A DNA stretch of 64,000 bases, from assembly GCA_022072085.1 (NCBI GenBank), contig JAJVII010000021.1, positions 62,001 through 126,000 on the forward strand, given 5' to 3'. Of the stretch, positions 14,978 through 51,655 are shown piece after piece. Source of the stretch: Phycisphaerae bacterium. Lineage in GTDB: Bacteria > Planctomycetota > Phycisphaerae > JAJVII01. The notes below the pieces were generated by a model, which was not told the DNA's origin, ran no database searches, and saw only the letters and a program-made list of their open reading frames with translations. Numbering within the stretch: position 1 is the stretch's first letter; each line of letters opens with the position of its first letter. The position numbers and the translations under genes are program-made.

Positions 14978-14992
14978 TGGCATGCTGTTTGC
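14978..14992 (+). promoter_or_regulatory. Sigma-54 (-24/-12) promoter of PEP-CTERM gene 15039-15674
   Basis: TGGCATGCTGTTTGC, a perfect match to TGGCAYG-N4-TTGC with correct spacing. The predicted start is near 15004, giving a ~35-nt leader. Confidence 0.88.
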
Positions 14993-15038: not shown

Positions 15039-15674
15039 ATGAAGCGCTCCGGACGAAATATCTGCATGGCCGTCATGGCGGCGGTCTGCCTGTCAGGCGG
15101 GCCGGCCCGGGCGGCCGTTGTCGGCTACGACTTCGACAGCGATCAGAATCACACCGGCACATGGTACACACAGGCCGGCTGGAACAGCGTTCGGCCGAAT
15201 ACGCTCTACGCCGCCGGCTCGCAGAGCTACGGCTGGGACGCCAGCGTCGGGGTCAACCACCGCGACCGCGGCGCGTTCACCGATCCGATGTCCTACGCGC
15301 TGCGCGACCTGCACTTCGGCCCGAGCGACCGGACCTTCAGCGTCGACGTGGCCAACGGGATCTATGCCGTGACGATCTACTGGCGGGATCCTTCGAGCCT
15401 GCACGACAACATACAGGTGTCGGCTGAGGGGGCGGTCGTGCTGACCGACGTGGATGTGCCGCTCAGTTCGGCGATAACGACACGCAGTTTCGACGTGACG
15501 GTCGTGGACCATCGGCTGGACATCACCATCCACAAGAACACGGGCACCGACCCCAACTGGATCATCAACGGCCTGACGATCGAGCAGATCGCAGCGCCCG
15601 AGCCGGCGACGCTGGCACTGCTGGCCCTGGGCTGGCTGGGGACTGCCGGGATTCGCCTGCGCCGCTGCCGCTGA
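15039..15674 (+). CDS. PEP-CTERM sorting domain protein
   Basis: 211 residues. A signal peptide (MKRSGRNICMAVMAAVCLSGGPARA) starts at ATG 15039 with GAAGGA upstream. The C-terminus ends APEPATLALLALGWLG... RLRRCR, a slightly degenerate but recognisable exosortase tail. The central part is beta-rich (GNSGGTGTWYTQAGW-like start, FSVDVANGIYAVTIYWRDP, HRLDITIHKNTGTDPNWIINGLTIEQI) and resembles a carbohydrate-binding-type jelly roll, as in CBM/malectin-like domains of planctomycete surface proteins; that assignment is tentative. Control by sigma-54 is strongly suggested by the promoter at 14978-14992 and the dyads at 14841-14878. Confidence 0.9.
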   Translation: MKRSGRNICMAVMAAVCLSGGPARAAVVGYDFDSDQNHTGTWYTQAGWNSVRPNTLYAAGSQSYGWDASVGVNHRDRGAFTDPMSYALRDLHFGPSDRTFSVDVANGIYAVTIYWRDPSSLHDNIQVSAEGAVVLTDVDVPLSSAITTRSFDVTVVDHRLDITIHKNTGTDPNWIINGLTIEQIAAPEPATLALLALGWLGTAGIRLRRCR

Positions 15675-15802: not shown

Positions 15803-16411
15803 ATGGCCAAGGCCCTGCTTCACGGATTGATCGTTGTCCTGGTCGCCCTGCTGGTGATCGGCGCGGTCATGTACGCCCTGGGGGCGCGGACACAGAACGT
15901 CAAGTCGTCGGTGCAGATTTCCCGTCCGCCTGCTGAGGTCTTCGCCTGGGTCACGCAGCCCGACCGCATCGCCCAGTGGCTCGGAGGATGGAAAGAGACC
16001 CGCCCGCTGGACAGCCTGGGCCTGTCAGCCGGCGCCCGCTCGGTCGATGTGATGGAGATCGACGGCCGCCGCTACGAGCTGAACGTGCGGATCGTCAAGG
16101 TCGAACCGCCCTCGCTGCTGCAACTGAAGCTGGAGGGCGAAGGCTTCCAGTCCACCGTGACCTACATGCTCCAGGACGCGGAAAGCGGCGGCACGACGCT
16201 CACCGTCAACAGCGCCAGCCGATACAGCGGGCTGATGCCCAGGCTGATGGGCGCAATGGTCACCTCGGCCGCCAACGAGAAGTTGCACGCGGACCTCGAC
16301 CGGCTGCGTAAGCTGGCCGAGGCACCGCAGGTTCCCACAACCCAGCCGGCGTCGGCCGACGGGACCGGCTCCCTGAGCGCCCTGATCGCCCCCCACTGGA
16401 GTTGCCCGTGA
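15803..16411 (+). CDS. Membrane-anchored SRPBCC (START/polyketide-cyclase-like) domain protein
   Basis: 202 residues. One N-terminal membrane segment (LIVVLVALLVIGAVMYAL) is followed by an SRPBCC domain: VQISRPPAEVFAWVTQPDRIAQWLGGWKETRP near residues 35-68 and GGTTLTVNSASRYSGLMPRL further on. The C-terminal tail carries a VPTTQP linker. SRPBCC domains bind hydrophobic ligands in a helix-grip cavity; the ligand here is unknown. The stop overlaps the next start (GTGA at 16408-16411), so translation of the receiver-like protein is coupled to it. Confidence 0.85.
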   Translation: MAKALLHGLIVVLVALLVIGAVMYALGARTQNVKSSVQISRPPAEVFAWVTQPDRIAQWLGGWKETRPLDSLGLSAGARSVDVMEIDGRRYELNVRIVKVEPPSLLQLKLEGEGFQSTVTYMLQDAESGGTTLTVNSASRYSGLMPRLMGAMVTSAANEKLHADLDRLRKLAEAPQVPTTQPASADGTGSLSALIAPHWSCP

Positions 16412-16800
16412 CCGCACCAGACGCCCCACTAGCCACCAGGCCCGTCATCGGCCTGATCGACGACCTCATCTTCGCCACGCGTGTTTCGGGCACGGCCCGG
16501 CAGCTCGGGCTGGCCTATCAGGGCCTGCTGGGCGTGACGGACCTGGCCGATCGGCTGGTCCGCGGCGGCGCCTGCCTGCTCATCGTGGATCTGGATTTCG
16601 GCAAGGCCGATCCGCTGGCCGCCATTGCCGCCGTCCGCGGCGACGCCCGGCTGGCCGACCTGCCGATCGTGGCCTTCGGCTCGCATGTCCAGGCCGACCG
16701 CCTGGCGGCCGCCCTGGCCGCGGGTGCGACCCAGGCCCTGCCCAGATCGGCATTTACATCCCGGCTGCCCGACCTTCTCACAGGCCTATCCGGCATCTGA
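16408..16800 (+). CDS. Receiver-like (CheY-fold) protein
   Basis: 130 residues with a GTG start at 16408 placed 6 nt after GGAG and overlapping the upstream stop by 4 nt. It is a stand-alone CheY-like fold: IGLIDDLIFAT (acidic pair), CLLIVDLDFGKADPLAAIAAV (candidate phospho-acceptor Asp), LPIVAFGSHVQ, and AAGATQALPRSAF. The invariant receiver lysine (KP motif) is replaced by arginine in LPRSAF, so phosphorylation-driven switching may be lost. No output domain is present and no histidine kinase is nearby. Its partner may be the co-translated SRPBCC membrane protein; this is inference. Confidence 0.8.
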   Translation: MTAPDAPLATRPVIGLIDDLIFATRVSGTARQLGLAYQGLLGVTDLADRLVRGGACLLIVDLDFGKADPLAAIAAVRGDARLADLPIVAFGSHVQADRLAAALAAGATQALPRSAFTSRLPDLLTGLSGI

Positions 16801-16808
16801 GCCCAAGT

Positions 16809-16846
16809 GTTGCGATTTTGCGACATTGGCGTTGCGAAAAAGCAAC
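16809..16846. promoter_or_regulatory. Tandem enhancer-like dyads upstream of the beta-helix operon
   Basis: TGTTGC-GATTTT-GCGACA (core 16809-16824) and GTTGC-GAAAAA-GCAAC (16831-16846), 22 bp apart, ~121 bp upstream of the sigma-54 promoter at 16967. Same dyad type and same spacing as 14841-14878. Confidence 0.68.
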
Positions 16847-16966
16847 ACCACCCGCGGGCAGGGGTCCGGCGGCTCGCCTTTTCACGGCAACGTTTGCCTC
16901 GTAAGCCGTTGGCGTTAAGAATGTTAATTTTGTTTATCGGAGATCGCGGGACTTGGGTTCAAGTTC

Positions 16967-16981
16967 TGGCACGCCATTTGC
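16967..16981 (+). promoter_or_regulatory. Sigma-54 (-24/-12) promoter of the beta-helix/esterase operon
   Basis: TGGCACGCCATTTGC followed by T, a perfect match to TGGCACG-N4-TTGCW. The predicted start is near 16993. Confidence 0.88.
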
Positions 16982-16992
16982 TGATAATGGAA

Positions 16993-17092
16993 ATGCCACG
17001 GGGCGACAGCCCCGGCTGCTCCTTCGGGAGCCGCGAAAGTCACTGAGAGAGACAGGTGGGCCCAGCCTCCAGCCAGAGGCTGGGTTTTTCTT
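16993..17092 (+). ncRNA. Candidate structured leader or small RNA ending in an intrinsic terminator
   Basis: From the predicted sigma-54 start, ~95 nt contain three stems: GGGGC-GACA-GCCCC (17000-17013), GCTCC-TTCG-GGAGC with a UUCG tetraloop (17018-17031), and the terminator stem at 17061-17084. The first gene of the operon starts ~90 nt beyond the terminator. It is either a sigma-54-driven small RNA or a leader that conditionally terminates. I could not match it to a known riboswitch consensus. Confidence 0.55.
17061..17092 (+). terminator. Intrinsic terminator inside the beta-helix operon leader
   Basis: Perfect 9-bp stem CCCAGCCTC/GAGGCTGGG (17061-17069, 17076-17084) with a 6-nt loop, followed by TTTTTCTTTT. 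Confidence 0.85.
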
Positions 17093-17177
17093 TTGGCTTC
17101 TCCGCCTCCCCGCGCGGTGGTATAGGGTTACTTTCTGAAGATGCTCTTTCGTCGCCTGCGCCGAGGGAGGCCCAGCC

Positions 17178-18596
17178 ATGTCGCCCCGCGTCCGTTTCGC
17201 CACCGTCGTCATCATCGCAATGTTGTCCGCACCGGCGCTGGGCCGGGACTACGTCGTCTCCAACGACGGCGACGACGCCAACGCCGGCACGCTGGACAAG
17301 CCGCTGAAGGACCCGATCAAGGCAGCGGCGAAACTCGTGGCCGGCGACCGCCTGGTCTTCCGCGCGGGGCTCTACAAGTGCCGCACCAACGGAACCTGGG
17401 GCCTGGCGCCGTCGCACGACGGGTCGGCTGACGCGCCCATCACCTTCATTAACCACGATAACGAGCACGTCCGCATCGACTGCACCGGCAGCGACTGGGG
17501 CGTCACGCCCAACGGCTACAGCTACGTCGTTTTCGACGGGCTGGACATCACCAACCCCACGCACTACGGCATGAAGATCTCCGCCGCGTCCAGCCGCAAG
17601 AACGCGGACGGCGGCTTCGTCTACAGCAGCCACGTGACGGTCCGCAACTGCGAGGTGCACCACACCGGCATGGAGTGCATCTTCGCCTATGGGACCGAGC
17701 ACCTCACCATCGAGAACAACCACCTGCACGACTCGGCCGGTTCGCACGGGCTCTACCTCCAGTCCGGCTGCCACCACCCGCGCATCCGCTTCAACACCAG
17801 CGAGAACAACCGCGGCAACAGCGGCATGCAGCTCAACGCGGCCGGGCCGAAGGAGGAGAACTTCATCACCGACGCCGTCGTCGAGAACAACCTGCTCCGC
17901 GGCAACGCTCAGGGCTTCTCGCTGATGGCCGTGTGCGACTCGGTATTCCGCCGCAATGTGCTCTATGACAACTGCTTCAACGGCCCGCGCTCCAGTGGGT
18001 ATCGCGAGGTCATCTGCTGGACCTACGGCGACAAGAACGCCGGCAAGCCGGGCAACCCCTGCCGCAACGTCACCTTCGAGCACAACACCATCGTGAACAC
18101 ACGGCCGAAGTACATCAGCCACCTGTTCGACGTGAAGTCCAACACCTCAGGCCTGGTCCTGCGCAACAACATCCTGGCGATCGCCGCCGCCAAGCCGCTG
18201 ATGACCGTCGCCGAGGACAGCGTCGCGGGCATGGTCTGGCAGAACAACCTCTGGCTGACCCCGGCCGCGGCCCAGGTCAACTTCGGCGACAAGCCGCTCG
18301 CTCTCGATGACTTCCTCCGGCAGATCAAGGCCCCAACCGGCGGCAACCTCACCGGTGAGCCGAAGCTGGCCGACCCGGCCAAGGGCGACTTTACGCCCCA
18401 GCCGGGCAGCCCGGCCATCGATGCCGCCGCAAAGGTCGACAACCCGACCGTCGAGGCCGCCGGCAAGGGCCCGGACATCGGCGCCGTCGAAGCCGGCGCC
18501 AAGCCCCCCGTCCGCGTCGGCTGCCTGCTCCCCTGGCGCGACATGCCCAAGCCTCAAGACGACACTGACACGACTCCGCCAGCGACCCCCAAGTGA
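17178..18596 (+). CDS. Secreted right-handed parallel beta-helix protein
   Basis: 472 residues. The signal peptide (MSPRVRFATVVIIAMLSAPALG) is followed by RDYVVSNDGDDANAGTLDKPL, the usual start of pectate-lyase-like parallel beta-helix domains (DUF1565/NosD-like). Repeated rungs are clear: VTVRNCEVHHTGMECI, LTIENNHLHDSAGSHGLYL, AVVENNLLRGNAQGF, VTFEHNTIVNT, LVLRNNILAIAA. The terminal part SPAIDAAAKVDNP...GPDIGAVEA is the characteristic closing motif of this group. It is probably a polysaccharide lyase or glycan-binding protein; catalytic residues are not assignable. GAGGGAGG precedes the ATG. The esterase gene follows after 12 bp, forming an operon read from the sigma-54 promoter through the leader. 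Confidence 0.9.
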   Translation: MSPRVRFATVVIIAMLSAPALGRDYVVSNDGDDANAGTLDKPLKDPIKAAAKLVAGDRLVFRAGLYKCRTNGTWGLAPSHDGSADAPITFINHDNEHVRIDCTGSDWGVTPNGYSYVVFDGLDITNPTHYGMKISAASSRKNADGGFVYSSHVTVRNCEVHHTGMECIFAYGTEHLTIENNHLHDSAGSHGLYLQSGCHHPRIRFNTSENNRGNSGMQLNAAGPKEENFITDAVVENNLLRGNAQGFSLMAVCDSVFRRNVLYDNCFNGPRSSGYREVICWTYGDKNAGKPGNPCRNVTFEHNTIVNTRPKYISHLFDVKSNTSGLVLRNNILAIAAAKPLMTVAEDSVAGMVWQNNLWLTPAAAQVNFGDKPLALDDFLRQIKAPTGGNLTGEPKLADPAKGDFTPQPGSPAIDAAAKVDNPTVEAAGKGPDIGAVEAGAKPPVRVGCLLPWRDMPKPQDDTDTTPPATPK

Positions 18597-18608: not shown

Positions 18609-20195
18609 ATGAAGCGCCTCGCTCTGATCGCAGCCGCCGTCGCCCTGCTCGCCCCGGCTGCCCTGGCTGCCGTCAAGCCGGCCAGCCTGTTCACCGACCA
18701 CGTGGTCCTTCAGCGGGATGCGAAGGTGAATATCTGGGGGACAGCCGACGCGGGGGAGAAGGTGAGCGTGTCGATCGCCGGGCAGAAGGTCGAGACGGCG
18801 GCTGACAAGGACGGCCGCTGGTCCGTGCAACTCGCCCCGATGAAGGCGGCCCGGTCGCTGGAGATAACCATCGCCGGCAGCAACACCGTCACGCTCAAGG
18901 ACGTGGCCGTCGGAGACGTCTGGGTCTGCTCGGGGCAGTCGAACATGCGATTCACGCTGGGCGGGACGCGCGACGCCGCCGAGGCCCTCAAGGCCGCCGA
19001 CCACCCGGACATCCGCCTGTTCCGCGTGCGCGAGCACCCCTCGCCCGAGCCGATGGAGGGGTTCGCAGCCACGCTCGGCTGGGAGCCCTGCACGCCGGCG
19101 TCGGCCAAGGGCATCACCGGCGTCGGATACTTCTTCTGCGTCGAGGTCCAGAAATCGGCCGGCGTGCCGATCGGCCTGCTGGAGAGCAGTTGGGGCGGCA
19201 CGCCAGCGCAGAACTGGACCAGCGCCGCCGGGCTGGCAGGCGATCCGGCGCTGAAGCGTTACCTCGACGCCTTCGAGGCCCAGAAGAAGAACGCCGCCGA
19301 CGCCGTCGCCAGCTACCCCGCCCGGCTGGCCGAGTGGCAGAAGCAGGCCGACCAGGCCAAGGCCGACGGCAAGCCCGCGCCGGCCAAGCCACGCGCCCCG
19401 GTGCAGTGGCAGGGCCCGACCACGCTCTACAACGCCATGATTCACCCGATGGTCCGCTTCCCGATCAAGGGAGCGATCTGGTACCAGGGCGAAGCCAACG
19501 CCTTCAGCATCGGCGACGCGACGCTTTACGCGAAGCTCTTTCCCGCAATGATCGGCAGTTGGCGAACGGCGTGGGGCGCCGAGTTCCCCTTCTTCTTCGT
19601 GCAGTTGCCCAACTACCGCAAGCACGCCGACAAGCCGACCGACACGCCCTGGGCCCGCATCCGCGAGTCGCAGGCGAAGGCCCTGGCCCTGCCTGGCACA
19701 GGCATGGCCTGCACCATCGACGTCGGCGAGAGCGGCAACCTGCACCCGACCGACAAGCACGACGTCGGCCATCGCCTGGCGCTGGTCGCCCGGGCGACCG
19801 TCTACGGCGAAAAGATCGAATACGCCGGGCCGACGTATGACTCAATGAAGGTGGAAGAGGGGAAGGTCCGCGTGAAGTTCACGCACGTCGGGGGCGGCCT
19901 GATCGCCGGCCCGCCCGAGGGCGCCCTGATCGCCCCGCCGGACGAGGCCCCCAAGAGCGGCGCCGACAAACTCGTCGGCTTCGCGGTGGCCGGCGCGGAC
20001 AAGGTCTTCCACTGGGCCGATGCGACGATCGAGCCTTCGACCGGCTCAGGCCAGGGCGGCGACAGCGTCGTCCTCACCTGCCCCGCCGTGAAGGAGCCGG
20101 TCGCGGTCCGCTACGGCTGGGCCGACAGCCCCGAGTGCAACCTCTACAACAAGGCCGGCCTGCCCGCGCCCCCCTTCCGCACGGACGACTGGTGA
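18609..20195 (+). CDS. Secreted sialate O-acetylesterase-family (SGNH) esterase
   Basis: 528 residues with a signal peptide (MKRLALIAAAVALLAPAALA). The family layout is intact: an N-terminal beta domain (LFTDHVVLQRDAKVNIWGTADAGEKV), the nucleophile block VWVCSGQSNMRF with the catalytic serine, VGYFFCVEVQKSAGVPIGLLESSWGGTPAQ, IKGAIWYQGEAN, and the late LHPTDKHDVGHRLA that supplies Asp and His. By family it removes O-acetyl groups from sialic acids or other acetylated sugars outside the cytoplasm. It is translated 12 bp after the beta-helix protein, so the two probably act on the same acetylated polysaccharide. Its 3' end faces the DUF4091 gene 15 bp away. Confidence 0.94.
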   Translation: MKRLALIAAAVALLAPAALAAVKPASLFTDHVVLQRDAKVNIWGTADAGEKVSVSIAGQKVETAADKDGRWSVQLAPMKAARSLEITIAGSNTVTLKDVAVGDVWVCSGQSNMRFTLGGTRDAAEALKAADHPDIRLFRVREHPSPEPMEGFAATLGWEPCTPASAKGITGVGYFFCVEVQKSAGVPIGLLESSWGGTPAQNWTSAAGLAGDPALKRYLDAFEAQKKNAADAVASYPARLAEWQKQADQAKADGKPAPAKPRAPVQWQGPTTLYNAMIHPMVRFPIKGAIWYQGEANAFSIGDATLYAKLFPAMIGSWRTAWGAEFPFFFVQLPNYRKHADKPTDTPWARIRESQAKALALPGTGMACTIDVGESGNLHPTDKHDVGHRLALVARATVYGEKIEYAGPTYDSMKVEEGKVRVKFTHVGGGLIAGPPEGALIAPPDEAPKSGADKLVGFAVAGADKVFHWADATIEPSTGSGQGGDSVVLTCPAVKEPVAVRYGWADSPECNLYNKAGLPAPPFRTDDW

Positions 20196-51640: not shown

Positions 51641-51655
51641 GCAAACCGCGTGCCA
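51641..51655 (-). promoter_or_regulatory. Sigma-54 (-24/-12) promoter of PEP-CTERM gene 50314-51501
   Basis: On the minus strand this reads TGGCACGCGGTTTGC, a perfect match to TGGCACG-N4-TTGC with correct spacing. The predicted start is near 51629. Confidence 0.88.

Follow-up and report, generated by a model that had tools for sequence, protein, structure and literature searches.

The locus lies in the window, the 64-kb stretch of DNA analyzed here, from a genome whose gene content suggests a planctomycete-like bacterium, and in this window two putative enhancer sites, a sigma-54 promoter and a predicted leader closed by an intrinsic terminator precede an operon for an exported right-handed beta-helix protein and a carbohydrate esterase (Table 1). 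The original prediction had placed the start of this operon ~90 nt beyond the terminator, which agrees with the 84 nt that separate the T-run from the start codon of the beta-helix gene. Another sigma-54 promoter, at 14978 (+), neighbors the focal one and precedes a PEP-CTERM gene (15039-15674).

Table 1. Features at the focal locus, with positions counted from the first nucleotide of the window.
Feature	Position	Strand	Remarks
Enhancer (bEBP) dyad 1, TGTTGCGATTTTGCGACA	16808..16825	+	9/10 match to TGTTG-N8-CAACA
Enhancer dyad 2, CGTTGCGAAAAAGCAACA	16830..16847	+	9/10 match to TGTTG-N8-CAACA
Sigma-54 -24/-12 promoter, TGGCACGCCATTTGCT	16967..16982	+	Consensus match
Predicted terminated transcript of ~100 nt, candidate sRNA/leader	16993..17094	+	Start from -12 spacing, end from terminator
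Stem-loop 1, CGGGGC-GACA-GCCCCG	16999..17014	+	Fold prediction
Stem-loop 2, C-UUCG-G cap	17015..17034	+	Fold prediction
Purine linker, GAGAGAGACAGGTGG	17045..17059	+	
Intrinsic terminator hairpin, 9 perfect bp, loop CAGCCA	17061..17084	+	Arms 17061-17069/17076-17084, -18.2 kcal/mol
Terminator U-tract, TTTTTCTTTT (U5CU4)	17085..17094	+	
Exported right-handed beta-helix protein, 472 aa, operon gene 1	17178..18596	+	PF13229 Beta_helix, 49.3 bits (cut-off 25.9)
SASA-type carbohydrate esterase, 528 aa, operon gene 2	18609..20195	+	PF03629, 66.7 bits (cut-off 24.8)

The focal promoter, TGGCACG-CCAT-TTGCT, has the GG of the -24 and the GC of the -12 element at a distance of 10 nt and is an exact match to the extended consensus of sigma-54-dependent promoters, TGGCAC-N5-TTGC, which bears out the sigma-54 promoter originally placed upstream of the leader. 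This consensus is found at 66 sites in the genome compared to two in the control, and the longer form TGGCACG-N4-TTGCT has 20 genomic copies, with none for the reversed control. The resulting regulon comprises ~60 promoters, many of which precede genes for exported proteins, often with PEP-CTERM signals, and the sister promoters mostly drive the next co-directional gene for such a protein. Besides the focal promoter and that at 14978, the window contains promoters at 51655 (-) and 6319 (-) and a weaker one at 1885 (-). The predicted transcription start, taken as 12 nt beyond the -12 C at 16981, is at ~16993.

The enhancer motif of the regulon was derived de novo by counting words without bias in the regions upstream of 63 sigma-54 promoters; ATGTTGC and GCAACA were the top words and TGTTG-N8-CAACA the top dyad. 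At a match of at least 9/10, the dyad is present in 35 of the 63 upstream regions, while ~0.4 would be expected from shuffles. A genome of the same family also has this regulon of sigma-54 promoters with palindromic enhancers, and the dyad is found there in 22 of 44 upstream regions (0.43 expected). The full palindrome, ATGTTGC-N6-GCAACAT, occurs singly or paired at a distance of 22 or 32 bp, mostly 115-220 bp upstream of the promoter. The two focal dyads, which were absent from the original account of the locus, start at -159 and -137 from the first base of the promoter and are 22 bp apart, a spacing that recurs at promoter 14978 and at one site of the same-family genome. They are putative binding sites for an NtrC-type activator, and because both carry the motif of the regulon, the focal promoter is, as judged from the DNA, a full member of it.

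A related regulon has been described before, in which the PrsK/PrsR system is associated with -24/-12 promoters and an upstream activator motif in front of PEP-CTERM genes; the motifs were reported only in Proteobacteria and the activator motif contains TTTACA (Haft et al., 2006; PMC1569441). The sigma-54 sites of the present genome likewise lie predominantly upstream of genes for PEP-CTERM and other exported proteins, but the activator motif differs, being the palindrome given above, usually at 115-170 bp upstream. Furthermore, the best PrsR-like protein of the genome reaches 418.3 bits against the PrsR model TIGR02915, below its cut-off of 502.6 bits, hence the activator is probably an analogous NtrC-type protein rather than PrsR itself.

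Downstream of the promoter, the fold predicted for the 201-nt region is better than those of 199 out of 200 shuffled versions (z = -2.6). Folding recovered the three stems that had been claimed from the sequence, namely the GACA-loop hairpin, the UUCG-loop hairpin and the perfect 9-bp terminator stem with its T-run, and in the ensemble all pairs of the terminator reach probabilities of 0.99 or more. A short transcript that ends at an intrinsic terminator before any gene is thus the predicted product of the promoter. No fold that would compete with the terminator was found, as the best enforced alternative amounts to -40.8 compared to -49.7 kcal/mol and is 8.9 kcal/mol worse, and the mutually exclusive antiterminator fold of a riboswitch or cis-attenuator was not seen. 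The earlier statement that no known riboswitch is recognizable stands, with zero Rfam matches at gathering score in the whole window. At a relaxed E-value, the anti-hemB RNA (RF02837), which bears a weak likeness in length and shape to 17010-17093, scored 21.8 bits for this segment compared to a gathering score of 49.5, and was set aside as a chance match.

Terminators of this strength are scarce. A strict class, defined by a perfect stem of at least 7 bp and at least seven T in 10 positions, has a single member on both strands of the window and none in 20 shuffles. With one mismatch allowed, four terminators were found in 864 kb of the genome (the window and L159-L198), and a more relaxed definition gave 24. 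The focal terminator is among the strongest in the 0.86 Mb of genome examined, and four strong terminators in 864 kb mean that ordinary genes seldom have a signal of this kind at their 3' ends. This scarcity suggests that most genes may end otherwise, for example by Rho. Among the 66 sigma-54 sites, two are followed immediately by a strong terminator without an intervening gene, namely the focal site and a site beside glmS on contig C30. A further terminator behind a sigma-54-like site (L139) was dropped, as the enhancer dyads there belong to the next promoter. Elsewhere in the genome, an isolated strong terminator (GCCCGGTCTGT..ACAGGCCGGGC-TTTTCTTTTG) lies 584 nt beyond the preceding long open frame (L182:16500-16640, contig C3); its region has no Rfam match and is possibly the site of another small RNA.

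The site on contig C30 (C30:65524; L071:2024-2125; L104:1501-1600) consists of a sigma-54 promoter followed within ~85 nt by a strong terminator, without a gene, and its two enhancer dyads are 32 bp apart, as is usual. It is located between a plus-strand gene and the convergent glmS, as would be expected of a free-standing sRNA gene, and is another candidate for a sigma-54-dependent sRNA on the basis of its sequence. The sequence GAAATGCCA is common to both predicted RNAs at their presumed 5' ends, and in combination with the canonical promoter this 9-mer, noticed after the fact, is restricted to these two sites of the genome. Outside the 9-mer the likeness of the two leaders is not significant (98 of 1000 shuffles reach an equal score), hence homology between them is not established. 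The glmS-linked sRNA is absent from the same-family genome.

Relatives of the focal RNA were sought by comparing the leader DNA against 100 related genomes and in wider sets. No homologue was found in its own genome, in one same-family genome or in about 400 genomes of the class, and no exact 20-mer of the leader occurs in 85k genomes; conservation or covariation of the kind expected of a GlmY- or Qrr-like sRNA was not seen in the own, same-family and class genomes. With no homologue in the same-family genome and the class genomes, nothing indicates that the RNA itself is under selection. When 397 class genomes were scanned for the promoter followed by AAATGCCA, only the two sites of the own genome looked real and the others were near the control level. 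In one genome (G056, L002:1501-1610), a 28-nt stretch matches the focal leader at 93% and is followed by a strong terminator-like hairpin with a T-rich tail. This match is without a sigma-54 promoter, none of the 34 other genomes in the family, among them congeners, has it, and it is probably due to chance; another match (G042, L003) turned out to be sequence without the leader. The proposal of a new regulatory RNA, understood as a conserved structured family, is not supported in view of the missing Rfam match at gathering score and the missing homologues.

Some of the leader sequence has parallels within the regulon. The focal linker contains GAGAGA, which is found in 14 of 61 regulon leaders (5.3 expected), and elements of the same type were also counted in eight of 42 sigma-54 leaders (3.0 expected). 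In the same-family genome, leaders L115 and L146 have a similar GAGAGAG-CAGGTGG block. The enrichment of GAGAGA-type elements in sigma-54 5' UTRs (for example L004, L006, L115, L123, and L146) exceeds what a Shine-Dalgarno function would need.

We consider it slightly better than an even chance, at a probability of about 0.52, that the locus is a sigma-54- and enhancer-dependent gene for an untranslated small RNA of ~100 nt, likely acting in trans, with the operon being expressed mainly otherwise or by leakage. In such a mechanism, an NtrC-type activator would bind the two dyads and switch on the -24/-12 promoter along with the other members of the PEP-CTERM/exported-protein regulon. RNA polymerase would start at the predicted position, transcribe the two hairpins and the purine linker, and stop on the U-tract. 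The RNA would then probably act in trans on a putative target, using its CAGCCA loop, the purine linker or the free 5' end, and would regulate at the post-transcriptional level inside the same envelope programme. Expression of the beta-helix/esterase operon would depend mainly on another source, or on leakage past the terminator. The sequence itself shows the promoter, the enhancer sites, the place in the regulon and how strong and rare the terminator is, while the start, the transcript, the efficiency of stopping, the action in trans and the target are inferred. There is good support for a sigma-54-dependent transcript that has a strong built-in stop. Of the two options left by the original prediction, a small RNA or conditional read-through into the operon, the small RNA is the better one, and nothing speaks positively for conditional read-through, as there is no competing antiterminator fold and the same-family orthologue of the beta-helix gene is without the leader.

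The transcript could also be a 5' leader that belongs to the beta-helix/esterase operon, with the sigma-54 promoter as the regulated promoter of these genes and the terminator attenuating either constantly, in a leaky manner, or under conditions set by an RNA or protein factor, which we regard as rather unlikely. The next co-directional gene does encode a beta-helix protein that is exported, in keeping with the regulon, no sigma-70-like promoter was found in 14.0-20.3 kb, and the 197 nt from the -12 element to the ATG, compared to a regulon median of 106 nt, are still inside the observed range (at least 190 nt at eight of 43 promoters, the focal one either included or additional). However, the strong terminator dominates the ensemble and no alternative fold frees it, no other regulon leader before a nearby gene has a strong terminator, and in the same-family genome the orthologous gene has neither leader nor terminator directly upstream. 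A search with the beta-helix protein in a collection of 85k genomes gave no close relative.

The similarity of the leader to other 5' UTRs would be accounted for if the locus were the remnant of a deleted PEP-CTERM gene, whose promoter and 5' UTR had become joined to the old terminator. The GAGAGAG(-)CAGGTGG block shared with PEP-CTERM 5' UTRs of the same-family genome, the order AATGCCA-hairpin-GAGAGA as in L134, and the ~110 nt from the -12 element to the T-run, which equals the usual leader length, all point in this direction, yet the similarity to L115 is marginal (an equally high score came from one of 60 shuffled sets), the locus showed no residue of a coding sequence, and such terminators very rarely end genes in this genome. 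Moreover, both dyads, the promoter and the terminator appear undecayed, and we judge a remnant to be improbable. A chance pairing, in which the hairpin has nothing to do with the promoter and, for example, ends the upstream genes (15803-16800), is still less credible. These genes are co-directional and end ~260 nt before the hairpin, but only ~0.02 strong terminators are expected within ~130 nt behind 66 promoters, by arithmetic from the strict density, compared to the two that were seen, and a terminator of the upstream genes would stop the sigma-54 transcript too.

Among known systems, the small RNA reading has its closest counterparts in enhancer-dependent sRNAs. GlmY of the Enterobacteriaceae is a short terminated sRNA that depends on sigma-54 and QseF, has sites for this NtrC-type regulator upstream and takes part in envelope-related control (PMC6075780, PMC7073468). 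The focal locus likewise has a predicted short terminated RNA with putative upstream sites for an NtrC-type activator, and it is the second candidate of the genome, on contig C30, that adjoins glmS, an adjacency that is not kept in the same-family genome; unlike for GlmY, no Rfam model matched in sequence or structure at gathering score. Qrr1 of the Vibrionaceae, which depends on sigma-54 together with LuxO and SypG and belongs to an exopolysaccharide and aggregation programme (PMC10162802), is enhancer-dependent like the focal candidate, but belongs to another phylum and has no homology to it. By analogy, the focal RNA is a candidate of a known kind, the sigma-54-dependent sRNAs such as GlmY and Qrr, rather than a new class. 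A described sigma-54-dependent sRNA of a planctomycete was not found in the literature searched.

It is conceivable, though we hold it to be quite improbable, that the focal and C30 RNAs form a small family of sigma-54- and enhancer-dependent sRNAs sharing the 5' end (G)AAAUGCCA, which would be co-induced with the planctomycete PEP-CTERM/exported-protein regulon and act back on it after transcription, perhaps through mimicry of the GAGAGAG elements in its own 5' UTRs, by which an RNA-binding protein would be titrated. The definition of the regulon by its promoter and palindromic enhancer is new relative to the 2006 description of the PEP-CTERM regulon. If the focal RNA is real, it would be an sRNA that belongs to a large programme under enhancer control, for PEP-CTERM and exported proteins, and could offer a route to the post-transcriptional tuning of this programme.
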